DNA from: a virus
Virus record (IMG/VR): IMGVR_UViG_3300026488_000025
Span: 1-64,000 of that record
Length of the DNA stretch: 64,000 nt
Reading direction: 5' to 3' (one strand)
The notes under the pieces: model-generated
Databases searched by the model: none
What the model was told of the DNA's origin: nothing
The model's input: only the letters and a program-made list of their open reading frames with translations
Shown here: piece by piece, positions 23,307 through 53,479 of the stretch
Layout of the letters: every line of letters begins with the position of its first letter
How positions within the stretch are numbered: the stretch's first letter is position 1
Made by a program: the position numbers and the translations under genes

Positions 23307-23467
23307 AATTCAAATTAGAAGATACATCATACGAATCAATATTAGAAGTAAGAAAAGCACTACAAGATTACAAATATACAGTAACACTTGATAACATTTA
23401 TACAGTCGAAGGTGAATCAAAAGGTATTATAAGCAATCTTCAATTCGTGATAATAACAGTCTTATAA
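23303..23467 (+). CDS. hypothetical small protein
   Basis: 54 aa (MKFKLEDTSYESILEVRKAL at the start). Its ATG overlaps the gp4 stop as ATGA, so it is coupled to gp4. Alpha/beta by eye; not recognised. Confidence 0.6.
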   Translation: MKFKLEDTSYESILEVRKALQDYKYTVTLDNIYTVEGESKGIISNLQFVIITVL

Positions 23468-23470
23468 ATA
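23463..23470 (+). promoter_or_regulatory. late promoter before HNH endonuclease leader
   Basis: TTATAAATAC overlapping the stop of the 54-aa gene; the transcript would begin about six bases on, at the edge of the structured leader. Confidence 0.75.
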
Positions 23471-23476
23471 CATTTA

Positions 23477-23552
23477 ATAAGAGGAATCTTGTTTGAACTA
23501 ACTCTTCGCGGTCTTTAGTTCAAACAAGATTCAGGCCGCGAACCACTCTTAT
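23477..23552 (+). ncRNA. pseudoknotted 5' leader, copy 1
   Basis: Outer stem ATAAGAG/CTCTTAT (23477-23483 with 23546-23552); 17-bp stem P1 GAATCTTGTTTGAACTA (23484-23500 with 23516-23532); loop starting ACTCTT; pseudoknot TTCGCGGTCT/AGGCCGCGAA (23505-23514 with 23533-23542), where one pair is G-U. Same layout, different sequence, as 40625-40714 and 53388-53465. Confidence 0.8.
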
Positions 23553-23575
23553 AATTTACTTATAGGAGTTCTCTA

Positions 23576-24346
23576 ATGAACCTTACAGAAATATTACACG
23601 AATTCAAATCACATAACCTTAACATAATCGATGAATCTAAACTTATAGAGTATATAGACTTTTGCATATCTCACAATCAAAATAACAAAATAATGTACAA
23701 AACAGCACACCATCACATTCTACCACAAGCAGTAAAACTACCATTTGGTAACTTCAGCGACCTCAAATCAAATCCTTGGAACGGCGTGCATTTACTACAC
23801 AAAGACCATTATGACGCACACTTTCTACTTTGTCAATCAATAGAGCATTATAGCATAGTGAGTTCATTTTATGCTATGAATAATAAAGATTTAAAGAATA
23901 AGAGATTAGATAAAAATGATATGGTTTCTGAAGATGTTACGGAATTGTTATTAAGAGATAGAACTAAACTAGTAACAGCAGAATATCTATTAAACGGTGA
24001 ATATACTTCTATAGCTAAAGAAGTGGGTAAGAAAGCATCTATAACGAAAAGAAAAGGATTTATAAAAGATGGGAACCTGACTACGATAGCTAAAGAAAGC
24101 GGAAAGAAAAGAACAGCTACAAATAATGGTAGAGCTATTACAGTTGTTATTTACAATATTAATAATGAAGTTATTGAAGAGTGTAACGGTACTTTCTTTG
24201 CTTTTTGTAAAATACATTCATTGGATTATACATCGTTAAAGAACGCGTCTAAAGATAGTAGATTATTCAAGACAAATCTAAGTAAAGCAAGAGCTATAAA
24301 CCAAGGAAAAGAAAAGTTTATAGGTTGTTATACAGAAACTAAATAG
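23576..24346 (+). CDS. HNH homing endonuclease
   Basis: 256 aa. HNH core AHHHILPQAV (about residues 44-53), then NPWNGVHLLHKDHYDAHFLL (about 66-85). The C-terminal half has repeated short blocks (YTSIAKEVGKK, LTTIAKESGKK) probably used for DNA binding. Inserted between gp4 and the opposing gene at 24347 with no spacer at its 3' end. Late promoter and structured leader upstream. Confidence 0.85.
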   Translation: MNLTEILHEFKSHNLNIIDESKLIEYIDFCISHNQNNKIMYKTAHHHILPQAVKLPFGNFSDLKSNPWNGVHLLHKDHYDAHFLLCQSIEHYSIVSSFYAMNNKDLKNKRLDKNDMVSEDVTELLLRDRTKLVTAEYLLNGEYTSIAKEVGKKASITKRKGFIKDGNLTTIAKESGKKRTATNNGRAITVVIYNINNEVIEECNGTFFAFCKIHSLDYTSLKNASKDSRLFKTNLSKARAINQGKEKFIGCYTETK

Positions 24347-24676
24347 TTATTTCTCCTCCTTAATAAATGTATCAGTTTCCTGAGCCATAGCAATCTCTTT
24401 GAATGTTCTAATTTGCTTCTTCTTTTTTGGTTTCTTGAATATAGCTGTATCGGGTGCTGTACCTAAGTCTGCTGATGCTGTTACTTCCTGAATACGATAT
24501 GCTCTTTTCATAATCATTTCTCGTTCTTCTATATTAAAAGAACCATATAACAGTTTTTCATCATATTTATTATCCTTTATTATCTGAGCAATTAAATCTA
24601 GTCTATTATCATTTTTTAGAGGGCTCTTAAAGTATTCTTTTGCTAGTTTCTGTATATCTTTTTCTATTGTGTGCAT
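24347..24676 (-). CDS. hypothetical protein
   Basis: 109 aa, helical, with a basic patch KKPKKKKQIRTFKEI. Its stop abuts the stop of the HNH gene. Not recognised; second in a two-gene late unit. Confidence 0.6.
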   Translation of the reverse strand: MHTIEKDIQKLAKEYFKSPLKNDNRLDLIAQIIKDNKYDEKLLYGSFNIEEREMIMKRAYRIQEVTASADLGTAPDTAIFKKPKKKKQIRTFKEIAMAQETDTFIKEEK

Positions 24677-24685
24677 ATCAATCTC

Positions 24686-25057
24686 CTAAGACTCGTATAT
24701 TCTATAAATGTAATACGGAATCATTCCACCATATTCAAAATCTACCATTTTAGCACAAGCTAATCTAATTGGTGCATCACCTGTAATTAAATCTTCATTA
24801 TCTTCCATAATTGCATCATCTGTCATTAAGAAGAAATCTTTACCTTTCTTATCGATACCAGTCATATAAACAAAACCATTTTCTGCTACTAACATTTTGA
24901 TATTAGCATCTGGTCTTTCTATAATAATTCTCTGATTAGCATAAGCACTCTCGTGATTGATATATGCTTTCTTGATGGGTTTTATGTTTGAAACAAGATA
25001 TTTTCTTACTTTGTCCCAAATTACACCTTCGTTTACAAATTCGCTAAATTTTTTCAT
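24686..25057 (-). CDS. putative internal virion protein with capsid-targeting N-terminus
   Basis: 123 aa. MKKFSEFVNE-G at the start is close to the T4 internal-protein peptide MKTYQEFIAE-A that gp21 removes. Late promoter at 25077-25084. The mature part would be about 113 residues, mixed alpha/beta; not recognised. Likely packaged in the head and injected. Confidence 0.6.
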   Translation of the reverse strand: MKKFSEFVNEGVIWDKVRKYLVSNIKPIKKAYINHESAYANQRIIIERPDANIKMLVAENGFVYMTGIDKKGKDFFLMTDDAIMEDNEDLITGDAPIRLACAKMVDFEYGGMIPYYIYRIYES

Positions 25058-25075
25058 ATTAATCTCCGTTTAAGT

Positions 25076-26560
25076 TTATTTATACTCTTCTTTTCTTATA
25101 GCATAACTGTCAATTCTTACAACTAACCAAGTTAAGGCGAGATAAGTTATTTCAAGAACAAAGGTCATTAAAAGATTTATCATCTTTAATAAAGCTAACA
25201 GTTCTATACCAAGCAACTCAGCAGTAAAATTAAGTGCTTTGTTAGTTTCTCCTACTTGTTTCTCATTCAATTCAATCTTTGCTTGTTCTTTTGTGTCTTC
25301 TAAACTAGTAATCTTATCTTGAAGTACTTCTACTTTTTTATTGATAAGTTCAACCTTACCTGCTTTAGAGCTAATGATAATAGTTTTCTTTTCTTGAACC
25401 TTAGAAATTTCATCATTCATTCTATTAATTTGAATCTGTAAGTTTCTTTTCATAGTCTTATAGTTCTTAGGTAAATCACTTATCCTAACTTTAGTATTAG
25501 TTATTTTATCTCTTATACTAGAAATACTTGAATCTAATGCACTAAGCTGTAATTGGATATTCTTCTCTACCTCAGGTATAGTGTTTTTTACTGTTAAGAT
25601 TCTACTATTTGCTGTTAGAATCTGTTTATCGATAAATTTAATTCTACTATCACCCATCGAAATGGTCTTAGCATCACCAACAGTCGATACGGCTAGACTC
25701 GAATAGATTCCTACACTAGATACGAATACCATCCCCACTAATGATGCTACTAGCACCATTCTGAGCATATAGTGATTGAAGTAAAATGCTATTTTGTCTT
25801 GCCATATTTTACCTATTTTTTCTTTATCAACACCTACTGAAAGAATTTTTATGATAGCCATCTTAGCTACATATAAAGAAACAATAATAAATGTTACCTG
25901 CGAAGGGTCTAAACGATGGTATGTTTCTTTCCAACCATCGATGTCAAACGATATAGCACTAGCAGCAATCATCAACATACTAACCATAACAATAAATCTT
26001 AGTGACATAACAAAATCTAATGTACCAGATACAACCCTAGAAGTGGTTTCAATAACAGTTTTTATGGTGCTCTCAAATTTCGATACTTCTGGTTCTAAGG
26101 TATCCGCATCTTTGAAAGGCACAAAATCATCTTCGCATATAGAAAGTAGGTCATCTATTTCATCTTTTGATAATACCCTAGGTTCAGGTTTCTCTGGTTT
26201 TTTGGGCTCCATTAGGTCTATATCTAGGTCTACTGTACTAGCAATGACGGTATCTAAATCAATTATTTCATAAACCGTGTCTTCAATATTTGGGTAATCG
26301 TACGGTTTTACTTCGTTCAAAGGTATGTCATCAGCATCATCAGCTTCGTCGCTATGAAGGTCTTCTATGACTAGTGGTTCGTTGTTCACTGGAATACTTT
26401 CTCTATCAGGCTGAATGGTATTTGTACGCTCGAAATACTGAGGGAATGCCGCTTGAAGAGAAACATTATCATTATCATCTCCGTGGAATAGTTTGTAATG
26501 TTTTCCGGCAAAAGTAATACCGACTGAATTAAATGGTTGTTCTGATAAATCTACTTTCAT
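25076..26560 (-). CDS. membrane protein with FliM-like CheY-docking motif and long coiled coil
   Basis: 494 aa. Residues 1-170 are cytoplasmic and acidic. Residues 129-140, VLSKDEIDDLLS, match the FliM N-terminal consensus LSQxEIDALLS that binds phosphorylated CheY. Membrane segments are near 187-204, 222-241, 265-288 and 452-482; between the last two a long helix-rich domain (about 300-445) probably forms a coiled coil. This is not a flagellar protein as a whole. Together with the phage CheY-like protein it suggests binding of CheY at the membrane. Stop lies at the late promoter of the next gene. Confidence 0.65.
   Translation of the reverse strand: MKVDLSEQPFNSVGITFAGKHYKLFHGDDNDNVSLQAAFPQYFERTNTIQPDRESIPVNNEPLVIEDLHSDEADDADDIPLNEVKPYDYPNIEDTVYEIIDLDTVIASTVDLDIDLMEPKKPEKPEPRVLSKDEIDDLLSICEDDFVPFKDADTLEPEVSKFESTIKTVIETTSRVVSGTLDFVMSLRFIVMVSMLMIAASAISFDIDGWKETYHRLDPSQVTFIIVSLYVAKMAIIKILSVGVDKEKIGKIWQDKIAFYFNHYMLRMVLVASLVGMVFVSSVGIYSSLAVSTVGDAKTISMGDSRIKFIDKQILTANSRILTVKNTIPEVEKNIQLQLSALDSSISSIRDKITNTKVRISDLPKNYKTMKRNLQIQINRMNDEISKVQEKKTIIISSKAGKVELINKKVEVLQDKITSLEDTKEQAKIELNEKQVGETNKALNFTAELLGIELLALLKMINLLMTFVLEITYLALTWLVVRIDSYAIRKEEYK
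25077..25084 (-). promoter_or_regulatory. late promoter
   Basis: TATAAATAAAC on the minus strand, 20 bases before the ATG at 25057. Confidence 0.75.
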
Positions 26561-26571
26561 ATTATACCTCT

Positions 26572-26889
26572 CTAGTTTAGTTCTATTCTTATTTCGTTTT
26601 CATCGTGCTCGATAGTATATTTGTCGTAGACTCCATCAACCAACATAAAGGCACTCTCTGCATCTTTAGCTTTAAAAAATACTAAGGTTTTACCTTTCTT
26701 AGTCGGTTTCTCTAATTTGATTTTGTAACCAAATTCTCTGATAATCTGAATAGGATTAGCTTCAGCTTCAATTAAGGTTTCCATCTTAGATTTCGGTGCT
26801 TCTTCACTCTGAACCTCTTGTGGTGCTTCTGTTATTGCTATTGCTTCGTTTGTGATTTTTGATTCTAATAAATTTCTAAATGGTTTCAT
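26572..26889 (-). CDS. hypothetical, possibly capsid-targeted protein
   Basis: 105 aa. N-terminus MKPFRNLLESKITNEA vaguely resembles the targeting peptides seen at 4457 and 24686, with LLE or TNE as possible cut sites. An acidic linker leads into a small alpha/beta domain (KLEKPTKKGKTLVFFKAKD). Overlaps the EAL-HDOD gene by 4 bases. Confidence 0.5.
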   Translation of the reverse strand: MKPFRNLLESKITNEAIAITEAPQEVQSEEAPKSKMETLIEAEANPIQIIREFGYKIKLEKPTKKGKTLVFFKAKDAESAFMLVDGVYDKYTIEHDENEIRIELN

Positions 26890-28079
26890 ATATGTACTCC
26901 GTTACTGTTTAATATTTTCCTCATATCTGCTGATGATATTTTCTCGAAATTCTTGATATAAGCTTCTTTGATTTTAATTTTCTCTTCTGCTTCAGTCTGT
27001 TTTAATGCTTCACCTAAAGGTCCTGATTTTCTAATAACTGCAGACCTGATTTCAGAATCTACGGCTATTGTATCGAAAATTTCATTAATTTCTATATCGA
27101 ATAGACTGTCTAGCATACTAAACATACCTACCATATATCCCTTCTCAGGTGATTCTGGATAGTGTCTTGCCATTTCTTCAGCTCTATCTATTGTGGCTTC
27201 AAGAACATTATTCGATAGAGCTTCACCTTCTACTTCTGCGAACAAGAAAATCAGTAACCACTGCGATAACGGATTTCTACCTATCATTGTTATTGCTTGT
27301 GAGATTGTAGAAATCTTTTTCGTGAATTCTTGTTGGTTATTCACAAATTTCAATATATTATATACTAGCTCTGGTCGTGTTTTAATATACTCTTCGATTT
27401 GTGTAGTACTAGCATCTTGTTTCAGTAAGACCATTAGCTGTAGAATAATAACCCGCGTGGCATCTTTGATGCTCTTACAAGTCTTAATCTCAGGTTTACC
27501 AATATAGTATCCCTGGAAATATTCAAAACCAAAATCTATATATTTTTTGTAGTCTTCTACTGTCTCAATCTTCTCTGCTAATAGCGTAATACCCATCTTT
27601 TTAAATTTAGGTATCAGTTTTACGAGATTTTCTTCGTTTACTGTCTGAATATCTATTTTCAATATGTTCACATACTTCCATAATGGATTAAATTGCTTAA
27701 GCATTTCTGAAGAAGCATCAAAATCATCAACGGCTATAATAAAACCTGCTTGTTTTAGTAAACGGACTTTCGAAACTACTTCGGGTGTAACATCTATTGT
27801 TTCAAGTAGTTCTATAACATATTTGTCATAATCGAGCATATCAAGTATATCGTGCTGTAGCATTTCTTCATCCACATTTAAGAAACCTAATCGGTCTTCT
27901 AATACATTATCTATGTTTAAATGAGTCAAAAGATTAAATAAGACTTTTGATGTTGCTGCTATATTAGACGGAAAATCATCGATGCCCCGAGGATTATCTC
28001 GATATAATAATTCATAACCTATTAATTTTCCGTGTAGGTTCTTAATAGGTTGTCGTGCTATAAAGACATCTGTAGCCAT
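26886..28079 (-). CDS. EAL-HDOD signalling protein
   Basis: 397 aa from the ATG at 28079 (CGAGGT ribosome site). N-terminal EAL domain of the YuxH type (ARQPIKNLHGKLIGYELLYR, residues 8-27): EAL reads ELL, but Asp 118-119 (VDDFD), Lys 141 (LKID), Glu 169 (AEK) and Gln 189 (FQG) remain. The HDOD domain spans about 200-360 (RPELVYNILKFVN, then IGRNPLSQWLLIF). EAL-HDOD proteins act in c-di-GMP and stress signalling, often as binders rather than enzymes. Very unusual in a phage. A late-promoter variant GATAAATAC lies just upstream. Confidence 0.88.
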   Translation of the reverse strand: MATDVFIARQPIKNLHGKLIGYELLYRDNPRGIDDFPSNIAATSKVLFNLLTHLNIDNVLEDRLGFLNVDEEMLQHDILDMLDYDKYVIELLETIDVTPEVVSKVRLLKQAGFIIAVDDFDASSEMLKQFNPLWKYVNILKIDIQTVNEENLVKLIPKFKKMGITLLAEKIETVEDYKKYIDFGFEYFQGYYIGKPEIKTCKSIKDATRVIILQLMVLLKQDASTTQIEEYIKTRPELVYNILKFVNNQQEFTKKISTISQAITMIGRNPLSQWLLIFLFAEVEGEALSNNVLEATIDRAEEMARHYPESPEKGYMVGMFSMLDSLFDIEINEIFDTIAVDSEIRSAVIRKSGPLGEALKQTEAEEKIKIKEAYIKNFEKISSADMRKILNSNGVHI

Positions 28080-28104
28080 AGTGACCTCGTTTTGTGAGTA
28101 TTTA

Positions 28105-28869
28105 TCAAAAAGACAAACCGTTCGGTACAAGGTTTAAAATATCTACATCATCTACCTCTCCCGAACAATGACCAAATTCCTTGAATGAGCAATAACCACA
28201 TAAAGGTGAGACTTTTTTAGGATATCTCTCCCCATTCTCACAAGATTTTGTATCGGCATATAAATCTTTAATAAGCTGTGTTAAATCTTTTCTGTGGAAT
28301 GTTTCGTGTCTTTGAGTACCGTGTTCTACATAGATAAAAGCAGTCTGAACCTCGTTGATGTGTGGATATTCAGTAAATGCCCACACAGCGTATGTTTTCA
28401 TTTGGTCGTTGGTGAAAAAACGAGTATCAGTACTCTTATCTTTACCTGATTTATAGTCATCGATAAAAATCTTATCTCCTTCCCACCAGTGAACATCGAT
28501 AGCACCACGAATCCAAGAAGTTTTATCCCAATAGTCGCACGATACTAGTTTAGCATCTATGATTTTGAAAGCAAACTTTTGTTCGTTGATATAATTTTGT
28601 TTAATAATGTTAGCCCATATTGGACCTTCTTTGAATTTATTTACAGATACAAGAGCAAGTGCTTTCTCTTCTGGTGTAAATATTTTATTCGTTTTGAAAT
28701 CGGGACGGTCATCGTTGTACTCTAAACATTCGTGAATATATGAACCTTTATATAGAGCTAGATTCGGTTCGAATGGAACCTTAACCTTGTCAATGTATTG
28801 TAGTTTAAATTTCATCGGACAAGTTCTAAAACTATCTAATCTTGAATGTGAGTATGGTGAGAATTTCAT
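28105..28869 (-). CDS. Cas4/RecB-type PD-(D/E)XK exonuclease
   Basis: 254 aa. YSHSRLDSFRTCPMKFKLQY (6-25) supplies the first Cys; KGSYIHECLEYN has the motif-I His; IRGAIDVHW and IFIDDYKSGK are the Asp and D-x-K catalytic motifs; three more Cys (CGYCSFKEFGHC) complete a likely 4Fe-4S site. Single-strand DNA exonuclease role in replication or recombination is inferred. Cas4-like enzymes occur widely in phages without CRISPR arrays, and none is seen here. Confidence 0.85.
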   Translation of the reverse strand: MKFSPYSHSRLDSFRTCPMKFKLQYIDKVKVPFEPNLALYKGSYIHECLEYNDDRPDFKTNKIFTPEEKALALVSVNKFKEGPIWANIIKQNYINEQKFAFKIIDAKLVSCDYWDKTSWIRGAIDVHWWEGDKIFIDDYKSGKDKSTDTRFFTNDQMKTYAVWAFTEYPHINEVQTAFIYVEHGTQRHETFHRKDLTQLIKDLYADTKSCENGERYPKKVSPLCGYCSFKEFGHCSGEVDDVDILNLVPNGLSF

Positions 28870-29028: not shown

Positions 29029-29044
29029 AATCTTTCCTTTGTCT

Positions 29045-29082
29045 CTTTATATGTAATATTATAACATAAAGAACCTTAGAGG
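29045..29082 (-). promoter_or_regulatory. early/middle-type promoter for Cas4-like operon
   Basis: -10 at 29058-29063 (minus) with GAACCTCTAAGGTTC inverted repeat just upstream. Confidence 0.75.
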
Positions 29083-40612: not shown

Positions 40613-40620
40613 TATAAATA
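40613..40620 (+). promoter_or_regulatory. late promoter before GIY-YIG leader
   Basis: TTATAAATAAGAG on the plus strand; the transcript would start at the first base of the structured leader. Confidence 0.75.
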
Positions 40621-40624
40621 AGAG

Positions 40625-40714
40625 TATAAGAGATACTACATATACTTTCTAACTCTTAGTCGGGTTCTTAGAAAGTATATGTAGTGTGAACCCGACTAAC
40701 CTCACACTCTTATA
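40625..40714 (+). ncRNA. pseudoknotted 5' leader, copy 2
   Basis: Outer stem TATAAGAG/CTCTTATA (40625-40632 with 40707-40714); 17-bp P1 ACTACATATACTTTCTA (40635-40651 with 40669-40685); loop begins ACTCTT (40652-40657); 11-bp pseudoknot TAGTCGGGTTC/GAACCCGACTA (40657-40667 with 40688-40698). Located 22 bases before the ATG of the nuclease gene. Confidence 0.85.
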
Positions 40715-40736
40715 ATAAAAATATAGGAGTCTTCAA

Positions 40737-41372
40737 ATGACTACACAACAAGAAAATCAAGTAACACTATACATAGCAACTCATAACAAAACAGGTCTTA
40801 AGTATTTCGGTAAAACAACAGTTTATTTTACTGAAGAACTACTCCAAGAAAAATATCACGGAAGTGGTAAATATTGGGTTAGGCATCTTAAAAAACACGG
40901 TGATGATGTGACTATGGAAATCTATGGTATATATGCATTGGATGAAGTAAAAGAAGTTGCATTAAAGTTTTCTGAAGAAAACAATATAGTAAAATCTCAT
41001 AAATGGTCAAACCTTAAGTTAGAAAATGGTTTAGATGGAGGTTCAACTATATGGTCAGAGAAGTCAAAAATCAAAAATAGTATTAGTCACCTCGGAGTCA
41101 AAAATAGTATGTACGGAAAGACTCATTCTTTAGAAACGAAGCTTCTTTTAGGTAAACAGTCCTCACTAAGAACTCAAGGTTCTGATAATCCAAATGCTAA
41201 AAAGTGGAAAGTAACTAATCCAAACGGTATAATATTTATTGTTGAAGGAGGTATTATCGATTTTTCCAAAAAACATAATTTACCTACTACTACTTTAGCA
41301 ACAATGGCTAAAGAAAATAGAATAATGAAATCCGGTAAATTAGTGGGTTGGAAGTGTGAATTTCTTACTTAA
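40737..41372 (+). CDS. GIY-YIG homing endonuclease
   Basis: 211 aa. Core LYIATHNKTGLKYFGKTT (11-28) with YHGSGKYWVRHL (about 40-51); the usual YIG is YFG. Then a NUMOD3-like DNA-binding block (HLGVKNSMYGKTHS) and a C-terminal WKVTNPNGIIFIVEGG module. Ribosome site TAGGAG. The gene sits between cPPR and primase regions. Confidence 0.82.
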   Translation: MTTQQENQVTLYIATHNKTGLKYFGKTTVYFTEELLQEKYHGSGKYWVRHLKKHGDDVTMEIYGIYALDEVKEVALKFSEENNIVKSHKWSNLKLENGLDGGSTIWSEKSKIKNSISHLGVKNSMYGKTHSLETKLLLGKQSSLRTQGSDNPNAKKWKVTNPNGIIFIVEGGIIDFSKKHNLPTTTLATMAKENRIMKSGKLVGWKCEFLT

Positions 41373-41517: not shown

Positions 41518-41554
41518 CATCATATATACTTTCGAAACCAATATGGAGACAATT

Positions 41555-42259
41555 ATGATATTAGGACCTAGTGTAACGCACAAATTATCTTTAATAAGAT
41601 TTACTAAACTTGAAGAAGAATGCTTAGAAATACACGGCGACCAATTTAACTATGATTCTTTCGTATTTACTAATATGAGATTACCGTCCACTATAATATG
41701 TAATATATGCAAAACATCATTCGATACATCTATGGACGCTCACATAAACAAAAAGTCTGGATGCAAAAAGTGCAAATCAACTAAACCTCAGCTAACACTC
41801 GATACGATTAAAAAGAGAGTCAAAAAATGTCACGGCGACAAATACACTATACTTAGTAGCGTGTTTACCGGCATAACAAACAAACTACTAATCAGATGCA
41901 ACACTTGTAAATCAGAATATCTTCAAGTAGCCGATAGCATAACTAGAGGTATTGGTTGTGCATCTTGCAATAAGACTGGTTTTAATGACAATAAACCTGC
42001 TACGCTATACTATATAAGTGTAGCTAATACTGCATTTAAAATAGGTATAACTAATAGGACAATAAAGGAACGATTTGGTAAAGATTTTAGTAAAATACGA
42101 GTTATAGCAACAAAACATTTCGATAAAGGTGTAGATGCTCGTTTAGCAGAACGAGAAATCATACTAAAATATAGAGAATGTCGCTATTTAGGCGAAAATC
42201 TACTAATGAACGGTAATACAGAATTATTTTATATGGATGTACTACAAGGTAAGCTTTAG
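41555..42259 (+). CDS. zinc-ribbon GIY-YIG homing endonuclease
   Basis: 234 aa from the ATG at 41555 (GGAG six bases before). Two N-terminal repeats of about 65 residues, each with HGD, C-x2-C and GC-x2-C (CNICKTSF then GCKKC; CNTCKSEY then GCASC), look like zinc ribbons for DNA binding. The C-terminal nuclease has TLYYISVANTAFKIGITNRT, then a conserved Arg in ERFGKDF and a Glu in AEREI. Overlaps the end of the opposing primase gene by 18 bases. Confidence 0.8.
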   Translation: MILGPSVTHKLSLIRFTKLEEECLEIHGDQFNYDSFVFTNMRLPSTIICNICKTSFDTSMDAHINKKSGCKKCKSTKPQLTLDTIKKRVKKCHGDKYTILSSVFTGITNKLLIRCNTCKSEYLQVADSITRGIGCASCNKTGFNDNKPATLYYISVANTAFKIGITNRTIKERFGKDFSKIRVIATKHFDKGVDARLAEREIILKYRECRYLGENLLMNGNTELFYMDVLQGKL

Positions 42260-45787: not shown

Positions 45788-46822
45788 CTACAACCCATTA
45801 AGGAAATCCAAATCATCATCTGATTCAGTTGCTGGAACTGGAGTCGTTTGACCCGCGTCTGCATTGAGTGTTGTTTCGACTGGTGCACTAACAACTGGTG
45901 TTTCAACTACTGGAGTTGGTGTTGTAGTTACTGGTTGAACTGCTAGTGGGTCTATTACTGTTTGTGCAACTGTCGTAGTAGGCTCTTGTGCAACTGTCGT
46001 ATCGGCTACTTGTCCTAGTGTACTTGCAACAAGTTGCTTGAATACGATTGGGTCAAGAAGTTTCGGTGTGTAAGTTTCACAAACCCATTTAAGTGACTTA
46101 GCACTTTCTTCATAAGTTTTGAATGCTTCTGGTTGCTTGAATTCCATTAAATCAACAGCGTTCTCTGTGATGTCTTTGATAGCAGCGTCTGCATCAGCAT
46201 AAACTGAAGTTGCAACATCGATTGTAGTGTCATCATAATTGAAGAAACCTGACGCTTTCTTAATTTTTAGTTTGATGTTATTACCAACTAATGGATTGAA
46301 TAACTCTTTTGGAGTTTCACCAAGTGCTCTATCTTGCTCAGATGGATTAAGTGCTGCCATAAACTTATCGAAAAGTTTTGTACCAAATTTCCATAGTTTG
46401 ATTTTACCATTGTTCTCAGGGTTAGCAGGGTCATTAACTACTAAGATATTAACATAGTAATTCATTTTACGAGAGAAGTTTTTCGCTTCAGTCTTTGCTT
46501 CATCTGTACCTAGTGCATAGATTGCTCCCCATAACTTAGAGGCAGGACACGGCTGGTCGATTGTTTCAGGTGATGTGTTTAAGTACCATCTTTTTTTCTT
46601 ATTTACTGCATCCCAAGATTGAACTGCGTGTGAATAAACTTTAATGAAAGGTAAACCTTTTGGGTCTAATAGTAAGCGAATGATTGCTACACCGTTGTCA
46701 TTTTCATCTCTTGAAAGTGTCCAGAATCGGTCATCTTTGTATGATTTTTTTTCAGTACCTAGTGTACCTGGTGCGAGTGTTTTTGATAGTTCTGCGAATG
46801 ATTGATTGAAATCTAATGCCAT
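45788..46822 (-). CDS. 32: single-stranded DNA-binding protein gp32
   Basis: 344 aa. N-terminal LAST-like basic/aromatic start, OB-fold core with HAVQSWDAVNKKKRWYLN (about 65-82) and CPASKLW, and a long Pro/Thr/Val linker to an acidic tail. The tail ends DDDLDFLNGL, like T4 gp32 (DLDDLLNDL). The T4 zinc ligands are mostly lost (one Cys remains). Coats single strands in replication, recombination and repair. Its long leader is rich in repeats and probably autoregulatory. Confidence 0.93.
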   Translation of the reverse strand: MALDFNQSFAELSKTLAPGTLGTEKKSYKDDRFWTLSRDENDNGVAIIRLLLDPKGLPFIKVYSHAVQSWDAVNKKKRWYLNTSPETIDQPCPASKLWGAIYALGTDEAKTEAKNFSRKMNYYVNILVVNDPANPENNGKIKLWKFGTKLFDKFMAALNPSEQDRALGETPKELFNPLVGNNIKLKIKKASGFFNYDDTTIDVATSVYADADAAIKDITENAVDLMEFKQPEAFKTYEESAKSLKWVCETYTPKLLDPIVFKQLVASTLGQVADTTVAQEPTTTVAQTVIDPLAVQPVTTTPTPVVETPVVSAPVETTLNADAGQTTPVPATESDDDLDFLNGL

Positions 46823-46834
46823 TGTGTATTTCTC

Positions 46835-46970
46835 CTAACGAAATCTTAACGAGTATCTTAAAGATACTTTTATACGAATGCCAACTTAAAGATGGCTTTA
46901 AACGAATTTTAACGAATGTCCTAAAGACAAAATTACTCTAAATAGTACTTCCTATAAGTACTTCCACGAA
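46835..46970 (-). promoter_or_regulatory. repeat-rich gp32 leader, candidate translational operator
   Basis: In the mRNA there are six ACGA/UUCGU words (positions 46838-46968) between small hairpins: AGTATCT/AGATACT (46852-46868), GCCA/TGGC (46880-46896), TGTC/GACA (46917-46929) and AGTACTT/AAGTACT (46944-46962). T4 gp32 represses its own mRNA by binding a structured, AU-rich leader; this region fits that role. Confidence 0.55.
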
Positions 46971-47112: not shown

Positions 47113-47128
47113 GGACTTAATTTTTGTA

Positions 47129-47136
47129 TATAAATA
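47129..47136 (+). promoter_or_regulatory. late promoter before second capsid protein
   Basis: TATATAAATACTATC on the plus strand. An in-frame ATG at 47124 lies at the promoter itself and cannot be the start. Confidence 0.75.
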
Positions 47137-47156
47137 CTATCAAAATGGAGAACTCT

Positions 47157-48065
47157 ATGGAATTAATCACCGAAGAAGAATTAAGAAGAATCGATGAAGC
47201 AACTACAATCAATGACCTTGTTAATACAGAAATACTAATTACTAGTATGGAAAGAATTGTACAAAAAGATAGTATTGCTTATCAAGTATCAGATATTAGA
47301 AAAATGGCAGGCCCAACTGGTCGTGTTAATGGATATTTAAGAGATAAAACATCAGATAAGATGATTGTAAAAACAGCACTTGTAGAAGCTGTGTCAAGAA
47401 CGATTAAATCTGAATTCACATTAGAAGTTCTTAAAGATAATGCAAGATTATATGGTGAAGATTTTCACGAAGTTCTTGCTTATTACTTCATAGATGAACT
47501 TGCTTATACAATCGATGCAGATTTTATCGATATGACTAAACTTGCTTCTAAAAAGAGTACAGCTTTATCTTTTGACTCTAGCTTTGATAATAACATTTAT
47601 GATGTTGTTACACAAGTTTTCGCTAAAATAAACAAAGAAAGAGTTGCACTTGCTACACGCTCTAAACGCCCACTAAAAACTTGGGCAGTTGTTTCACCAA
47701 ATATTGCTTCATTGCTTATGAATAACAGTATTCTTGCTCAAGATTTAGATAAAGGTGATTCAGGTGTTTCTCTTTTAGGTTCATTTGCTGGTATGGATAT
47801 CTACTTAGATAATACGCATACGGATGTAAAAGATTATGTTCTTTTAGGTGTTAAAGGAAATGGTTTTGCTAAAGGTGCTACGACTGTAAGCCCTTATGAG
47901 AGAACTTTCTTTACATCACAAGACCAATTATCAGGTGAGAGAAATTACTTTATGCTAGATAGAATAGCTATGATTCAAAACCCATCGGATACATTAGGTG
48001 ATGACCTTTCAAGTATGCTAGTGTCATTTGAGATAGATTTAAGCCAATTAGCGTTATACGCATAA
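47157..48065 (+). CDS. short gp23/gp24-like capsid (vertex) protein
   Basis: 302 aa from the ATG at 47157 with GGAG before it. HK97-fold signs shared with gp23: WAVVSPNIASLL (about residues 180-191), GSFAGMDIYLDNTHTDVKDY and the late block YERTFFTSQDQ. T4 gp24 is 427 aa, so this is a trimmed version without the insertion domain. The N-terminus MELITEEELRRIDE-A has a T4 Alt-like targeting start and a probable gp21 cut after Glu 14. Likely vertex or second shell protein. Confidence 0.7.
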   Translation: MELITEEELRRIDEATTINDLVNTEILITSMERIVQKDSIAYQVSDIRKMAGPTGRVNGYLRDKTSDKMIVKTALVEAVSRTIKSEFTLEVLKDNARLYGEDFHEVLAYYFIDELAYTIDADFIDMTKLASKKSTALSFDSSFDNNIYDVVTQVFAKINKERVALATRSKRPLKTWAVVSPNIASLLMNNSILAQDLDKGDSGVSLLGSFAGMDIYLDNTHTDVKDYVLLGVKGNGFAKGATTVSPYERTFFTSQDQLSGERNYFMLDRIAMIQNPSDTLGDDLSSMLVSFEIDLSQLALYA

Positions 48066-48075
48066 GGAGATAGAT

Positions 48076-48198: not shown

Positions 48199-48213
48199 TA
48201 GTATATAGACATT

Positions 48214-48450
48214 ATGAATGCTCTATATGATTTGATATACGATTGGCTAGACAAAGATGCCAACTCTATTGATTTTTGGGGTATTATAGCCGATGAATAC
48301 GGCATATTTTATGAAGAAGGTAAAATAGATGATGTCGATGATTTAGTAACAAGGCTCTCTAAGAAGCAACTAAAGAAGTTTGCTAAAGATTATATTACTG
48401 ACCCAGCGAGAACCAGACAAAAATTAGGTAAATATGCCGACCTATTGTAG
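48214..48450 (+). CDS. hypothetical protein
   Basis: 78 aa, acidic start then basic helix (LSKKQLKKFAKDYITDPART). Third gene of the short late plus-strand operon. Its stop abuts the opposing Dda gene. Confidence 0.6.
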   Translation: MNALYDLIYDWLDKDANSIDFWGIIADEYGIFYEEGKIDDVDDLVTRLSKKQLKKFAKDYITDPARTRQKLGKYADLL

Positions 48451-48451
48451 A

Positions 48452-49789
48452 TTAGTTAGTCAATAAGACTAACTTGTCCGAACTCCTCGTAACCCCTACA
48501 TACATTAAGCGAAACATTAAATCATCTTGTTCCTTACTCTTACCCTGCATACCTTGAATATCTCTTACATCTAAGTAAACAGAACAAAAAGATGAACCTT
48601 GTAGTTTGTGTAATGTACTTGCATAATGGTACTTGATTTCAATAAATTCTTCTTTCAAAGCGAAGAACTCTTGCCATAATTCTTTCTTGAATTCACCCTT
48701 AGCCATCTTTGCATCGTTAGCTACTTTTTGAGTAATACCATAGAAGTCTTGCTCTGAAGATGGGTCTATGATGTCAATACTTTTGTTGTCTTTATCGGCA
48801 CATTTCCAGTAGTTAATCGTTTGACCTTTCATCTTTTTAGAACTTTTTATTACTCCCATTAACTCAACACTTTGTCCATTACTATGAACCATTTCTTTTT
48901 GTGTACCTTTATCAATAACATTTGGTTGTTGTAGTACAATAGTGTCACCAGGTTCTAAGAATTTCTTATCAGGGAACATAGTTTTTCTGATTCCAAAATT
49001 GTAAGTATTCACCAAACTGTTTGTAAATGAACCTACAATTTTTGTAGTCAAAGTATTACTATCAGTAGCATAAATATTTAAGAATTCTCCTATCTCTTGG
49101 TACATAGGGATATCAGGATGTCTAGCAAGAATCTTACTGATTGGTGGGTATTTTTTCAGTTCGATACATCTTCTAAGGTCTGTAGCAAGTTTAATTAATG
49201 GATTATCTTTTGCTTGTCTAACGATTTCTGTTAGTTCGTATGAGTGAGATTCTGGTAGTTCGTGCATCTTACCTGACACTACGGGTAGTTGGTATTTATC
49301 CCCTACTAGCAGTACAGCTTTGACTCTTCCCGAGTCGATAGCATCTTCTACATACTCGAACAACTCTGAACCTACCATCGACTTCTCATCGATTATGAGC
49401 AAGTCACATTTCATTTTCTTGATACCAGGGTCTGTGTTCACTTTAAGGACTTGTTTACCAGTATTGTAATCATTTTCGATTTTTAGTTTAAGGAATGAGT
49501 GTATAGTACTTGCTATAATTTCATCTTCTGCTCTTTTGTCGCCTGTATTGTATTTCTTAGCAATATTCTTAGCTACTTCAAGTGAAGCGTGGGTAGGTGT
49601 CGTAATGGCAATCTTCCATCCTAAGAACTTGAAATAATTGATTATATAGAGTATAGAGAAAGTTTTACCTACTCCGGCACCACCAGATAATTCAACAATA
49701 CTATCTCTAGTAATGTCCATATCTTTGGCTTCGATGAGGTCTTGAATGAGAGGCGTAACAACCTCTTCTTGGTGTGTAGTTAGTTCCAT
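48452..49789 (-). CDS. dda: Dda-like SF1 DNA helicase
   Basis: 445 aa. Walker A GGAGVGKT (36-43), motif Ia TTPTHASLEVAK, Walker B LLIIDEKSMV, motif III VGDKYQLPVV, and the C-terminal HKLQGSS and YVGVTRSSDKL motifs. Same size as T4 Dda (439 aa), which unwinds 5'-3' and helps start replication. Confidence 0.94.
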   Translation of the reverse strand: MELTTHQEEVVTPLIQDLIEAKDMDITRDSIVELSGGAGVGKTFSILYIINYFKFLGWKIAITTPTHASLEVAKNIAKKYNTGDKRAEDEIIASTIHSFLKLKIENDYNTGKQVLKVNTDPGIKKMKCDLLIIDEKSMVGSELFEYVEDAIDSGRVKAVLLVGDKYQLPVVSGKMHELPESHSYELTEIVRQAKDNPLIKLATDLRRCIELKKYPPISKILARHPDIPMYQEIGEFLNIYATDSNTLTTKIVGSFTNSLVNTYNFGIRKTMFPDKKFLEPGDTIVLQQPNVIDKGTQKEMVHSNGQSVELMGVIKSSKKMKGQTINYWKCADKDNKSIDIIDPSSEQDFYGITQKVANDAKMAKGEFKKELWQEFFALKEEFIEIKYHYASTLHKLQGSSFCSVYLDVRDIQGMQGKSKEQDDLMFRLMYVGVTRSSDKLVLLTN

Positions 49790-49797
49790 TAGTATCC

Positions 49798-49825
49798 TTT
49801 ATGTCGTATTATAACATAAAAGTAC
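49798..49825 (-). promoter_or_regulatory. early/middle-type promoter before dda
   Basis: TTAAGTACTTTTATG then TTATAATACG, -10 at 49808-49813 (minus). Confidence 0.75.
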
Positions 49826-49842
49826 TTAATACATTTTAGTAC

Positions 49843-50187
49843 TTAGTATCTACTTGGTAAATCTTTTTGTGTCTTCATTGGCCCAAAATTAAAATATTTC
49901 TTACCACTGATTCTTACGGCGAAATAATAAGCATAAGCAGCAGTTCTATTCCAGATATTACTAAACCAATTCGATGCTCTTTCTGCATCTTCTAGCATAG
50001 CATCTAAAAATGATTTGTCTGCATATTTTCTGTCTTTGTTCTCACCACCTCTCCAGTAGTAAAAGTCGTGATGATTACAAGATGCCTTGAAGAAGAATTG
50101 TGGAGGCGTAAAACCCATTCCTTTACCACCACATCCGTTAGTGATTTCTGATTTTTGTTTATCTGTTAATTGACTGTATTTTAGCAT
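49843..50187 (-). CDS. phospholipase A2-like protein
   Basis: 114 aa. NGCGGKGMGFTPPQFFFKAS, then CNHHDFYYWRGG with the His-Asp pair of secreted phospholipase A2 active sites, then ADKSFLDAMLE. This resembles small PLA2-like proteins in bacteria and phages. No signal peptide. The late promoter suggests a role in lysis or in the virion; activity is unproven. Confidence 0.6.
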   Translation of the reverse strand: MLKYSQLTDKQKSEITNGCGGKGMGFTPPQFFFKASCNHHDFYYWRGGENKDRKYADKSFLDAMLEDAERASNWFSNIWNRTAAYAYYFAVRISGKKYFNFGPMKTQKDLPSRY

Positions 50188-50211
50188 ATTATATACCTCC
50201 GTATTTAGAGA

Positions 50212-50219
50212 TATTTATA
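50212..50219 (-). promoter_or_regulatory. late promoter before phospholipase-like gene
   Basis: CTATAAATATC on the minus strand, 25 bases before the ATG at 50187. Confidence 0.7.
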
Positions 50220-50540
50220 GAAGGAGTGTATTATTCTTAAAAATTAGATTGAATCGTTTATGATGTTTTCGTTTACTGGCATCTCCGAAGAGAACATTAT
50301 CAATTTAATGCCGAAGGAACCATCTATTTGCTCATAGATAAGACACATTTATTTGATATGTGTATCGAGTTATTCATTATCATAACTGAAAAGTTGAACT
50401 CATTTCGATGCTTATAGCATCAGGCTTTGTCTTCAACTCTGACTGTAACAGCTTCCATTTAAGTTTCCTTAATAATTAAGTTTGATGTATTCATAAACTG
50501 TAATTCTAATTTTTAACAATAATAATTTAAAGAAGTATCA
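50220..50540 (-). ncRNA. gene-free structured region after ro60, candidate RNA
   Basis: About 320 bases without a convincing gene, downstream of a leftward late promoter (50542). On the minus strand it has GATGC/GCATC (about 50412-50426), AGTTAT/ATAACT, ACACAT/ATGTGT, ATCTAT/ATAGAT and, near 50280-50315, a GGCAT/ATGCC pairing enclosing CTC-TTCG-GAG, a UUCG tetraloop. A 12-codon frame (MEAVTVRVEDKA, from 50458) has an AAGGAAA site. It could be a long leader, a second Ro-bound RNA, or both. Confidence 0.4.
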
Positions 50541-50541
50541 T

Positions 50542-50549
50542 TATTTATA
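50542..50549 (-). promoter_or_regulatory. late promoter for the structured region
   Basis: CTATAAATAATG on the minus strand, next to the TATAGACC hairpin at 50547-50568. Confidence 0.6.
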
Positions 50550-50575
50550 GACCCGATAAGAGGTCTATTTAAGTA

Positions 50576-50647
50576 TTAAACTTTGCACTTACCAAATTTA
50601 CGAAGCAATTTACAAAGTAAACAGTTCTTACGCATCCAATTTAACAT
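50576..50647 (-). CDS. 23-residue cationic peptide with three Cys
   Basis: MLNWMRKNCLLCKLLRKFGK then CKV, net charge about +7, Cys at 9, 12 and 21. AAAGGAGAACT gives an ideal ribosome site. Lies 14 bases after the ro60 stop, so it is probably co-transcribed. Amphipathic and basic like a membrane-active or RNA-binding peptide. Confidence 0.5.
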   Translation of the reverse strand: MLNWMRKNCLLCKLLRKFGKCKV

Positions 50648-50661
50648 AGTTCTCCTTTGTA

Positions 50662-52185
50662 TTAAAGTTTGATTGCTAGAATCTCATCGATTAATGCGTT
50701 TGAGTTTTTCCACATCTTCGGAATTACGCTTAACATCTTGTCCGAAAATCCTGAAACTTCCAGAATGTCATTAGATAATTTCATTGGTGTGTCACCGCCG
50801 TATCCTTGAAGATTCCAGAATAGTATCTTAACATTTGGGTTGATTTTTCTATATGCTGTTACTGCTTGTTTGAATGAACCTAAACTATTTGATTGCATAT
50901 CTGTTAGGATAACAATTTTATCTACGAATGTTTTCGTTTTCACTAAATCTGCCATACTAGCATTAAGATTTGTACCATATCCTTGTGTGTTTGTTCTCTT
51001 AATGAAATCGAACGGAGAACCACTGATATCCACTCTACGAGCATTGTCTGCCCATAAGTAACCTAATGTTTTGGTTTTATCTAATCCCACTAACATACTT
51101 GCCATTAAAATCTTACCGATTTTGAATGGGCTCATTTCTGTAGCACTTGAACCCCATCCTGAACTACCCATTGAACCTGACTCATCTAGTAACAGTGCTA
51201 CACTCTCACCTTCATCAACGATTGGGATATTCTTTGCTGAAATAATGAAACCTGCTTCGATACCATCTAATAGTTCTTTTTGTAAGATTCTATCGAATGA
51301 CATTGCTTCTACTGCTTCTGCTGCTTGAATAAATCTGAATGGAAGTACCATAGATTTACGACACGCTTTCTCATTTCTGAATAACAATGAAAGTTTTGTA
51401 ATCATTGCTTGTCTATCTGATTGGTCGAAACCATCAAGAGTTTCTAAGATATTTTTAAGGTTTTTAAGACCAGCCATATATCCTAGTTTTCCTTCGATTA
51501 ACATACTGAAATAGTTTTGAGCTCTTGATTCACCAGTTGATTGAGCATTAACTGTTTGAGCAGTAACGATGTTCTCTAATGTTCCTTCGATTAATCTTTT
51601 GAATACATCTGTATCTTTTGCTTTACCTTTTGCTACAAGAGTTTCTGGATTTGGACGAGCAAGTTTAACGATGTCACGAAGTTTAATCTTACCTGAACCA
51701 CCTGAATATTTCTTTAATTGATACTCATCAAATTTTGACTCAAATACATCTTTGATTGCTCTACGAAGAGAATTTGGAATCATTTTACCTTTATTGCGAG
51801 TATTGAATAAAGCAACCATTTCCATAGCATCATCAGGTCTTACAATAGTTTTAGTAAGAGCACTTCTTAAATAATCAGTACCTTTAACATTTTCTGCTAA
51901 GATAGCACCCATTATATGTGATACAGTTCTAAGATTACCTTCATTACGAACATAAACTGCTGCTTTTGCTGCGAACTCTGAATCGCCTTCAGCAACCATA
52001 CCTATAATACGATTGATTCTATCTGATTCTGATTCGTAATATGAATTACCATTTACCATACTTGATAAGATAACTGAAGCTAACTCTTTACGAGCATCTT
52101 CATATTTGTATGCTACACCACCTGCTAAGTTTGTAGTTTCTGCTTTTTTCTCTGTTTGATTGATTGTTTCGTTGAATTTTGCCAT
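50662..52185 (-). CDS. rsr: Ro60 orthologue (TROVE-vWA RNA-binding protein)
   Basis: 507 aa from the ATG at 52185 (AAAGGAAAG). The TROVE HEAT-repeat ring covers about residues 20-320 (GGVAYKYEDARKELASVIL, AVYVRNEGNLRTVSH, RRAIKDVFE). The von Willebrand A domain follows with an intact MIDAS LLLDESGSMG (Asp 334, Ser 336, Ser 338) and LTDMQSN. In animals and bacteria Ro60 binds misfolded RNAs and Y RNAs; bacterial Ro can guide exoribonucleases. A few mycobacteriophages also have one. Its 5' leader holds a Y-RNA-like fold. Confidence 0.93.
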   Translation of the reverse strand: MAKFNETINQTEKKAETTNLAGGVAYKYEDARKELASVILSSMVNGNSYYESESDRINRIIGMVAEGDSEFAAKAAVYVRNEGNLRTVSHIMGAILAENVKGTDYLRSALTKTIVRPDDAMEMVALFNTRNKGKMIPNSLRRAIKDVFESKFDEYQLKKYSGGSGKIKLRDIVKLARPNPETLVAKGKAKDTDVFKRLIEGTLENIVTAQTVNAQSTGESRAQNYFSMLIEGKLGYMAGLKNLKNILETLDGFDQSDRQAMITKLSLLFRNEKACRKSMVLPFRFIQAAEAVEAMSFDRILQKELLDGIEAGFIISAKNIPIVDEGESVALLLDESGSMGSSGWGSSATEMSPFKIGKILMASMLVGLDKTKTLGYLWADNARRVDISGSPFDFIKRTNTQGYGTNLNASMADLVKTKTFVDKIVILTDMQSNSLGSFKQAVTAYRKINPNVKILFWNLQGYGGDTPMKLSNDILEVSGFSDKMLSVIPKMWKNSNALIDEILAIKL

Positions 52186-52251
52186 TGTGTTCTTTCCTTT
52201 GTTTAATTCTCTTACGAGATAATGTTGAAGTGTCCTCACTTCACCTTGTGT

Positions 52252-52400
52252 GTTCTTTTAGTAATATTAGATGAAATCTACCAAGATGTCATTCCCGAGG
52301 GAATGTTGTGGTTTGACCCACGAGTTCAAATTAAGAGTTTGTGTGCTGCAATCAGCGCGATGTAATCTGTGGTATGTAATTCTAACATTACTAAAAGAAC
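52252..52400 (-). ncRNA. Y-RNA-like candidate in the ro60 leader
   Basis: 149 nt closed by a 20-bp stem (52400-52381 with 52271-52252), perfect except one G-U on the minus strand, which would be C-A on the plus strand. Inside: TACCA/TGGTA (52374-52370 with 52283-52279) and four hairpins: GCTG-ATTG-CAGC (D-arm-like), CAAA-CTCTTAA-TTTG with a 7-nt anticodon-like loop, GTGG-GTCAAA-CCAC (T-arm-like) and CATTC-CCTCGG-GAATG. Paired ends plus a tRNA-like module is the layout of bacterial Y RNAs. It lies 67 bases before the ro60 ATG. Confidence 0.7.
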
Positions 52401-52583
52401 TTAGAAATTTTTTGATGAAATCGAATTTGATGTATATGTGTAATTCAATTAATTTGCGATGTAATCAAAATCTGTAATTCAAAAAATTTATAAGTTCTCT
52501 TTGTTCGTAGATGTATTATAACGAAAGTTTACTTAATTTTTGTGTAATTAAGTATTTTCTATCCATCTTTCTTTTCTTATATG
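52401..52583 (-). promoter_or_regulatory. promoter region of ro60/Y-RNA unit
   Basis: An extended -10 TTATAATAC (52515-52520, minus) with TTAAGTAAAC upstream drives the unit. Between it and the ncRNA is a gene-free AT-rich stretch; GATTACATCGC occurs here (52456-52466) and again in the ncRNA (52357-52367). Confidence 0.6.
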
Positions 52584-52587
52584 TATT

Positions 52588-52610
52588 TATATAGACCAAA
52601 AGTCTATATA
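52588..52610 (-). repeat. TATAGAC hairpin after HNH gene
   Basis: TATATAGAC/GTCTATATA, 9-bp perfect stem, 5-nt loop, directly after the HNH stop; it overlaps a TATAAATA (52584-52591, minus). No U-run follows. Confidence 0.6.
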
Positions 52611-53366
52611 CTACTTATGTTTACACTTATCGAAATGCCATTGTTTCATTCCATTAATCTTTCCAGACTTATTGCAGTGAGGACAAGTAACTGTCTCTCT
52701 ATTCTTAGCACTATCACTCATTTGTTTCTTAGTACAATCAGAGTGTTCTTTATCTAAGAATGGTTTAGAAGATATTATAACTCCATCAGCATATAGTTTT
52801 TTCATAAGTTTGGATTGTTTCTCTTTTCTTTCCTCTGAATGTTTCTTGCCTAGACAAGGATGAATCTCTCTATTCTTAGCACTATCACTCATTTGTTTCT
52901 TAGTACAATCAGAGTGTATCTGATTGTACATAGGATTACCAACACCTGCTTTTACTTTTCTCATCTTATTTTTTGTTTCTTCTGAATGAGATAGATTAAG
53001 ATTATATGTTTCATAATGTTTTGAATTATACTTTCCTGACCCATTCATTCTTCTAATTGCTTTACTCATCTTTCGTTCACCATAAGTATAAGAGATAGAT
53101 TTGTAGTGTTTCCAAATAAGTATATGACATATAAAGTGCTCTCTAGCGGTAAGAAGAATGCTATTCCATTTATTAGACCTTAGGTCACCATATTCAGGAA
53201 ACATAGATTCGGGTAGAATATGGTGATTCTCAAAGTATATATACTCATCTTCAGATTTTTTAAGTTTCTTACGATTCTCATTTTGGGCATTGTTTATTAT
53301 GCTAAGGTATAATTTGCCATATTTGGTTTCTTGTTTAAGGTGTGATTGTATTTCTGTAAGTGTCAT
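52611..53366 (-). CDS. HNH homing endonuclease with NUMOD3 repeats
   Basis: 251 aa. HNH core FENHHILPESMFPEYGDLRS (45-64) then KWNSILLTAREHFICHILIW. The C-terminal half has NUMOD3-like DNA-binding repeats (GNPMYNQIHS, LGKKHSEERK) and two identical copies of HSDCTKKQMSDSAKNRE. It ends in a zinc-finger-like CPHCNKSG with HFDKCKHK. Late promoter and pseudoknotted leader upstream. Confidence 0.85.
   Translation of the reverse strand: MTLTEIQSHLKQETKYGKLYLSIINNAQNENRKKLKKSEDEYIYFENHHILPESMFPEYGDLRSNKWNSILLTAREHFICHILIWKHYKSISYTYGERKMSKAIRRMNGSGKYNSKHYETYNLNLSHSEETKNKMRKVKAGVGNPMYNQIHSDCTKKQMSDSAKNREIHPCLGKKHSEERKEKQSKLMKKLYADGVIISSKPFLDKEHSDCTKKQMSDSAKNRETVTCPHCNKSGKINGMKQWHFDKCKHK
52694..52917. 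repeat. 53-bp exact direct repeat inside the HNH gene
   Basis: 52694-52746 and 52865-52917 are identical, 171 bases apart (in frame, 57 codons). They encode the duplicated HSDCTKKQMSDSAKNRE block. Perfect identity at third positions points to a recent duplication. Confidence 0.85.
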
Positions 53367-53387
53367 AGAAGACTCCTATAATAAATT

Positions 53388-53465
53388 ATAAGAGTTGATT
53401 TCCAGGTCTGTTACTTATTATGATATAGACCTGGAAGAGTATATCATAATAAGTAACACTCTTAT
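53388..53465 (-). ncRNA. pseudoknotted 5' leader, copy 3
   Basis: Outer stem ATAAGAGT/ACTCTTAT (53465-53458 with 53395-53388); P1 GTTACTTATTATGATAT, 17 bp (53457-53441 with 53426-53410); loop begins ACTCTT; pseudoknot TTCCAGGTCT/AGACCTGGAA (53436-53427 with 53409-53400). Same architecture as copies 1 and 2, on the minus strand. Confidence 0.85.
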
Positions 53466-53471
53466 TATCTG

Positions 53472-53479
53472 TATTTATA
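53472..53479 (-). promoter_or_regulatory. late promoter before HNH leader
   Basis: TATAAATACAG on the minus strand, seven bases before the outer stem of the leader; it overlaps the end of the gene at 53475. Confidence 0.75.

Follow-up and report, generated by a model that had tools for sequence, protein, structure and literature searches.

How selfish homing endonucleases tame their own expression is an open question, and the locus described here raises it three times. The stretch of DNA analyzed (the window) comprises 64,000 nucleotides, positions 1 to 64,000 of IMG/VR record IMGVR_UViG_3300026488_000025, and is part of a 79.7-kb uncultured virus record that encodes T4-type portal and major head proteins. 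Three homing endonuclease genes in the window are each preceded by a structured 5′ leader, in which an initial annotation, made from the letters alone, had seen a pseudoknot and an RNA device that either guards the 5′ end or controls late translation. Our analysis favors a cis-acting RNA switch; the leader probably serves as a self-refolding, default-closed translation gate in late homing endonuclease mRNAs.

Architecture of the Three Leaders

The pattern ATAAGAG-N-ACTCTT-N-CTCTTAT matches the window at 23477–23552 (+), 40626–40713 (+), and 53388–53465 (−), the places at which the three leaders had been annotated. From 5′ to 3′, each leader consists of the late promoter TATAAATA, the element R (ATAAGAG), the 5′ arm of helix A (A, 18–20 nt), a linker (L1) that is essentially CTC, the 5′ arm of helix B (B, 9–12 nt), and the 3′ arms A′ and B′; B, A′, and B′ adjoin one another without a linker nucleotide in every copy. 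Then follow a few nucleotides, the element R′ (CTCTTATAA), 4–7 nt, the Shine–Dalgarno (SD) arm TTATAGGAG, and the ATG of the homing endonuclease gene. The pattern of R, loop, and R′ had no match in 100 shuffles, which served as the chance expectation. The end of TATAAATA lies 6, 5, and 6 bases ahead of copies 1, 2, and 3, within the 5–7 bases first reported. Although the shared set of parts is as originally described, A-A′ measures 18, 20, and 19 bp rather than 17 bp, and B-B′, which does pair in all three copies, measures 10, 12, and 9 bp instead of 10–11 bp; the G-U pair noted in the pseudoknot helix of copy 1 is present.

In copy 1 (+), the promoter TATAAATA (23463–23470) is followed by R (23477–23483; at or at most about 3 nt from the expected late start), A (23484–23501), L1 (CTC, 23502–23504), B (23505–23514), A′ (23515–23532, adjoining B), B′ (23533–23542, adjoining A′), R′ (CTCTTAT[AA], 23546–23554, a partner for R or the SD arm), and the SD arm TTATAGGAG (23560–23568), ahead of homing endonuclease gene 1 (23576–24346, +). 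Copy 2 (+) has its promoter TATAAATA at 40613–40620, R at 40626–40632, A (20 nt) at 40633–40652, L1 (CTC) at 40653–40655, B (12 nt) at 40656–40667, A′ at 40668–40687, B′ at 40688–40699, R′ at 40707–40715, and the SD arm, here TATAGGAG, at 40722–40729; gene 2 occupies 40737–41372 (+). Copy 3 lies on the other strand (−), with TATAAATA at 53472–53479, R at 53459–53465, A (19 nt) at 53440–53458, L1 (CTC) at 53437–53439, B (9 nt) at 53428–53436, A′ at 53409–53427, B′ at 53400–53408, R′ at 53388–53394, and the SD arm TTATAGGAG at 53373–53381, and it precedes gene 3 (52611–53366, −).

A Leader Family on Viral Contigs

Exact-pattern scans of viral contigs, followed by structure scans of the fetched DNA, yielded 50 parsed leaders with this architecture, 49 of them non-redundant, from 32 contigs. 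The 47 beyond the window's three are further covarying copies, on whose existence the initial annotation had let its proposal depend. The family was identified by these direct scans and by pair counts instead of a covariance-model search, and membership was assigned on promoter, R, and structure jointly, because a structure-only scan without R or promoter returned noise (384 matches versus 393 in reversed sequence); matches to a first, loose pattern were mostly noise as well. A scan for promoter, R, and R′ matched 37 stretches; matches of this kind without the structure on L144, L219, and L238 proved to be one coding sequence in three contigs. The variant CAAGAG was met mostly in coding sequence and in 2 true copies, and the 7 matches of a genome-contig scan were one copy of the second type described below, the contig with the inverted loop again, and chance matches. 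Every leader is preceded by a T4-type late promoter, with R beginning 4–7 nt after TATAAATA in 47 of 50. A second late promoter within R′, where some copies read TATAAATT, was considered and rejected, most copies reading TATAATxx.

Two departures from the common architecture were found. Three leaders (L175 at 679, L225 at 1172 on the − strand, and L385 at 1477) form a second type, with a bulge of 7–9 nt and an extra 8-bp helix around B (GACTTCAA/TTGGRGTC or GACTTCTA/TAGGGGTC) that itself covaries; the gene behind L175 appears to be lost. In one other leader (L218 (−) 4417, identical to L307 (−) 10220 and L386), the A/A′ loop is inverted, B′ directly repeats the loop, and there is no B-B′ pairing. 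This leader is a natural B-B′ mutant and a useful control.

Nearly all classifiable open reading frames (ORFs) behind the leaders are homing endonucleases, and they come from unrelated nuclease families. Their PHROG and Pfam matches are phrog_314, 655, 12434, 3339, 559, and 10820, NUMOD3, T5orf172, and the uncharacterized DUF7487; some ORFs match nothing, and several are truncated, as would be expected of decaying homing endonuclease genes. In the window, gene 1 is of HNH type (phrog_12434), gene 2 encodes a homing endonuclease of phrog_314 whose start is GIY-YIG-like and which carries NUMOD3, and gene 3 is of HNH type (phrog_655/12434) with NUMOD3, in agreement with the different families first assigned to them. 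GIY-YIG-like genes are found behind leaders of both types. As the same leader stands ahead of unrelated nuclease families, expression control appears to travel apart from the enzyme, and the leader can be regarded as the separate RNA module of late mRNAs that it had been taken for.

Cultured phages gave no DNA match, and in the six that were examined (Vibrio phiKT1024, VB_VaC_SRILMA, Pseudoalteromonas XG4, Rhizobium TM2_3B, Ochrobactrum OC, and Aeromonas phage 25) the leader was not found before related nuclease genes. Two contigs are binned with metagenome-assembled genomes of Cloacimonadota, which is weak host evidence, and no host is assigned from it.

Covariation of Helices A and B

Across 49 leaders, the 14 loop-proximal positions of helix A are paired in 98.8% of cells (96.1% Watson–Crick), compared with 47% between leaders, and helix B is 100% paired within a leader versus 54% between leaders. 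All four Watson–Crick pairs are used at almost every A position, different leaders share on average 38–39% identity in A or B, and sequence is conserved only in R, the CTC-like L1, and R′. The search itself demanded about 10–12 A pairs and 6 B pairs; beyond this demand, A reaches at least 16 positions in 47 of 50 leaders and B at least 9 pairs in 45 of 50. In an ungapped alignment of the 13 leaders of identical spacing, both sides change in 18 of 18 A pairs and 8 of 10 B pairs, 97.5% of cells are paired versus 32–40% with slid partners, and the covariation score is 0.897 versus 0.267 for shuffled data. Covariation is no less strict in the lowest A pairs (columns 8 and 10–14), down to the outermost one adjoining R, than in the rest of the helix. 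The strong covariation of completely different helix sequences that had been claimed from three copies is borne out, with A-A′ and B-B′ 97–100% paired and each of the four Watson–Crick pairs represented at almost all positions of both helices.

A palindrome maintained at the DNA level would yield G-U and A-C equally. Here, G-U cells number 55 and A-C cells 1, a count obtained with a helix finder that somewhat favors G-U and that tolerated mismatches in A, of which few were found. This excess indicates that selection acts on RNA and, by this measure, that helices A-A′ and B-B′ are selected at the RNA level. It also bears on the proposal that the interleaved repeats act as DNA, either as a cruciform or as a recombination or insertion site of a mobile cassette, or that the RNA pairs in trans. 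That A and A′ are near-perfect inverted repeats, and that one copy has an inverted loop as expected from recombination or template switching, would fit such a role; the G-U excess and the fixed position between late promoter and SD, with the promoter spacing kept, do not, and we consider it extremely improbable.

Nucleotides conserved as in the ligand-binding site of a riboswitch were not found in A or B, in line with their low identity. Because A and B are without conserved sequence, proteins that read either of them sequence-specifically are unlikely.

Steric Conflict of the Two Helices

The nucleotides that join A′ to B′ in an H-type pseudoknot have to span helix A from end to end. In the leaders, this segment (L3) is 0–5 nt long and is missing altogether in 25 of 50, and the distance from the start of A′ to the start of B′ is narrow (16–21 nt; 18 in 23 of 50). 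On the geometry of an ideal A-form helix, for which the choice of strand was checked by the known 10 Å minimum across the deep groove at 6–7 bp, spanning 14 bp needs about 7.6 nt and spanning 18 bp more than 9 nt. The longest helix A compatible with B-B′ is 9–13 bp, and 3–8 lower pairs must open; the loop lengths fit a classical H-type pseudoknot only with A shortened in this way and not with both full helices. Because A, B, A′, and B′ are interleaved almost without linkers, the full A-A′ (16–20 bp) and B-B′ cannot coexist, and the single static pseudoknot of the initial annotation is not supported in that form. Mutually exclusive helices that each covary imply at least two functional states rather than one static pseudoknot, unless B-B′ is intermolecular. 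In the second leader type, the 7–9 nt bulge might relieve the conflict.

We refer to the full A-A′ hairpin as state H and to the pseudoknot with B-B′ and a shortened A as state K. With an assumed loop cost of 8 kcal, state K is estimated to be more stable than the full hairpin in 49 of 50 leaders, by a mean of 8.5 kcal/mol, and with a cost of 11 it is so in 46 of 50.

Pairing of R′ with the Ribosome-Binding Site

R′ has two partners, R (7 bp; 6 in one copy) and the SD arm (CTCTTATAA/TTATAGGAG), the second of which the initial annotation had overlooked. A hairpin across R′ and the SD region is predicted in all parsed leaders, with a mean of −7.1 kcal/mol, and R-R′ contributes about −3.5 kcal. 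The same region averages −2.5 in 60 other genes of the window compared with −7.5 to −9.8 kcal/mol in its three leaders, and shuffling of the 3′ half weakens the SD hairpin from −6.5 to −1.6. Eleven leaders with a different 3′ arm still form the hairpin, often in a shifted register. L127 (at 2611) and L316 both read ACAAGAG in R and CTCTTGT in R′, and their 3′ arm has a C to match; this three-way change of R, R′, and SD arm is probably one event. The sequences themselves show the four pairings (A-A′, B-B′, R-R′, and R′-SD), that these are conserved or covary, and that the two long helices conflict sterically, and the clearest functional link that they offer is control of ribosome access by R′-SD pairing. 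Since K is estimated to be favored over the full hairpin, and likewise the SD hairpin over R-R′, an mRNA at rest is expected to be closed.

Such a leader could also be closed at all times, with K and the R′-SD hairpin keeping translation low and the lower part of A aiding hairpin nucleation or co-transcriptional folding. K with the SD hairpin is indeed the lowest estimated state, the helices are otherwise free in sequence, and hairpins that hide the ribosome-binding site (RBS) before T4-type homing endonucleases are known (PMC2988022). However, a static leader does not account for the strict covariation of the lower A pairs up to the one next to R, nor for R, which is kept or co-varies with R′ though the closed leader has no need of it, and we regard it as unlikely.

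R coincides with, or adjoins, the position at which transcription from T4-type late promoters is expected to begin; the other late promoters of the window have short leaders and no ATAAGAG. This position, with A-A′ directly after R, is consistent with the notion that R-R′ and the long stem block the entry of RppH or RNase E and stabilize the late mRNA, translation control being secondary. Protection of the 5′ end would leave unexplained both B-B′ and the SD hairpin that the 11 leaders keep despite a changed 3′ arm, and R is single-stranded in the estimated best state; as the main function it is quite unlikely. Of the two roles first proposed for the RNA device, control of translation has the clearest link to the leader, through R′-SD pairing, and guarding of the 5′ end is left as a possible side effect.

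Proposed Mechanism

In the switch that we favor, late transcription would start at or beside R. During synthesis, A-A′ would form before B′ exists, and R would meet R′ before the SD exists; in the resulting open state H, the full 16–20 bp of A-A′ would stand with R-R′ directly below and the SD free. Since the partners in A-A′ and R-R′ are made earlier than B′ and the SD, an early open phase is possible, the occurrence and length of which we infer. Once B′ is available, B-B′ would form state K with the upper 9–13 bp of A, the lower A pairs being opened. R would then lose its support, R′ would turn to the SD, and the RBS would be closed. A potentially harmful nuclease would be translated only briefly after the mRNA is made, or only under conditions in which state H persists. 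We infer which of the two states is translated, in what order the steps occur, and what governs the balance between them. A narrower version, offered tentatively as a possibility, is a ligand-free kinetic timer, in which exclusive helices of unconstrained sequence allow brief translation followed by self-closure, as a module common to unrelated endonuclease genes.

Several points weigh against this scheme. Its direction, with H open and K closed, is presumptive. The geometric figures rest on an idealized A-form helix and the state energies on a rough loop cost, and B-B′ formed in trans, as a dimer, would produce the same covariation. The inverted-loop leader, which has no B-B′, keeps an intact ORF of 240 aa. 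By a strict test, the SD core is paired in the minimum-energy fold in 36 of 50 leaders. Finally, R varies little, and R-R′ rests on near-constant sequence and one three-way change shared by two copies that are probably related.

As a rule, a switching RNA is proposed on the strength of one structure, the alternative being guessed. In these leaders, each of the two exclusive structures has covariation of its own in about 50 natural variants, and the proposed switch is therefore directly testable by break-and-restore mutants. As the helices carry no sequence requirement, the same layout could be assembled from helices of any sequence and used as a gene-expression part in laboratory strains.

Relation to Known Leaders

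In T4-type phages, RBS-sequestering hairpins have been described for I-TevI, I-TevII, I-TevIII, segB, and Aeh1 mobE; the late promoter of I-TevI is placed such that late transcripts are without part of the hairpin and hence open, and the others are arranged similarly (review PMC2988022). The present leaders resemble them in the type of phage, in standing before homing endonuclease genes, in having a late promoter, and in holding the SD in a stable hairpin. They differ in that the late promoter lies about 75–100 nt upstream, ahead of R, and the late transcript holds the whole anti-SD; late transcripts without the 5′ arm are not expected here, R′ being inside them. Moreover, the interleaved A/B element and an anti-anti-SD (R) precede the anti-SD. 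The seg43 gene of Aeromonas phage 25 also has a stable hairpin directly before the RBS of a homing endonuclease gene (PMC2988022); we read it as a simple hairpin (GGGGTTAT/AATAACCCC) that has neither B-B′ nor R, nor a TATAAATA nearby.

The gene 32 leader of T4, T2, and RB69, in which a small gp32-bound pseudoknot is followed by an unstructured RBS (PMC3014915), likewise contains an H-type pseudoknot with a bearing on the translation of a phage mRNA; it differs in serving one gene, and no mutually exclusive helices are described there (PMC3014915). The leaders might be operators of this kind, whose pseudoknot nucleates the binding of a phage protein, for example gp32, that then covers the RBS. 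A gp32-family protein is encoded at 45791–46822, and gp32 binds the leader pseudoknot of T4 and T2 gene 32 mRNA (PMC3014915). However, the RBS of the leaders sits in a hairpin, predicted in every parsed copy, instead of an unstructured A+U-rich stretch, and the phage's own gene 32 leader is differently composed, and we hold such an operator to be very improbable. Small hairpins with TTTAA loops and the repeats ATTCGTT/TCGTT follow one another in the leader of the gp32-family gene (46823–46950, −), which is a possible autoregulatory operator unlike that of T4.

In pseudoknot translational riboswitches (SAM-II, preQ1), an anti-SD and an alternative pairing set access to the SD; the leaders differ from these in having no conserved ligand core and helices that are free in sequence. 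The mRNAs of type I toxins (hok, AapA) have metastable leaders, in which mutually exclusive pairings succeed one another in an order given by synthesis and keep the SD of a harmful gene masked; the present leaders have another architecture, and no antisense RNA or 3′ processing is seen. In the early-promoter stem-loop cassettes of T4-type phages, an early promoter precedes the stem-loop, whereas the late motif TATAAATA lies ahead here.

Rfam 15 gave no match in the window and none on the leaders at E up to 1, and the leader-bearing loci matched only a weak tmRNA fragment elsewhere. A weak tmRNA-like match, with 21 bits versus a gathering score of 47 bits, lies at 1911–2004 of L181, a related phage contig. 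No description of the leader was found in the open-licence literature, subscription papers being outside the search, and the initial statement that no such element is described stands to this extent. Hiding of the RBS before T4 homing endonucleases is a known theme; the interleaved leader matches no Rfam family or description found.

Other Features of the Window

Just upstream of gene 1, a TnsA-like endonuclease ORF (22806–23303, +) has its own late promoter and no structured leader. The ORF at 41543–42256, behind gene 2, also has its own late promoter without such a leader and provides a local contrast. Behind a TROVE (Ro60-like) gene (50665–52239), a 474-base gap (50188–50661) looks structured and has no Rfam match; it may hold a Y-RNA-like partner RNA. 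The third Gp23-family ORF of the record lies at 47124–48062 (+), on the strand opposite to its neighbors.

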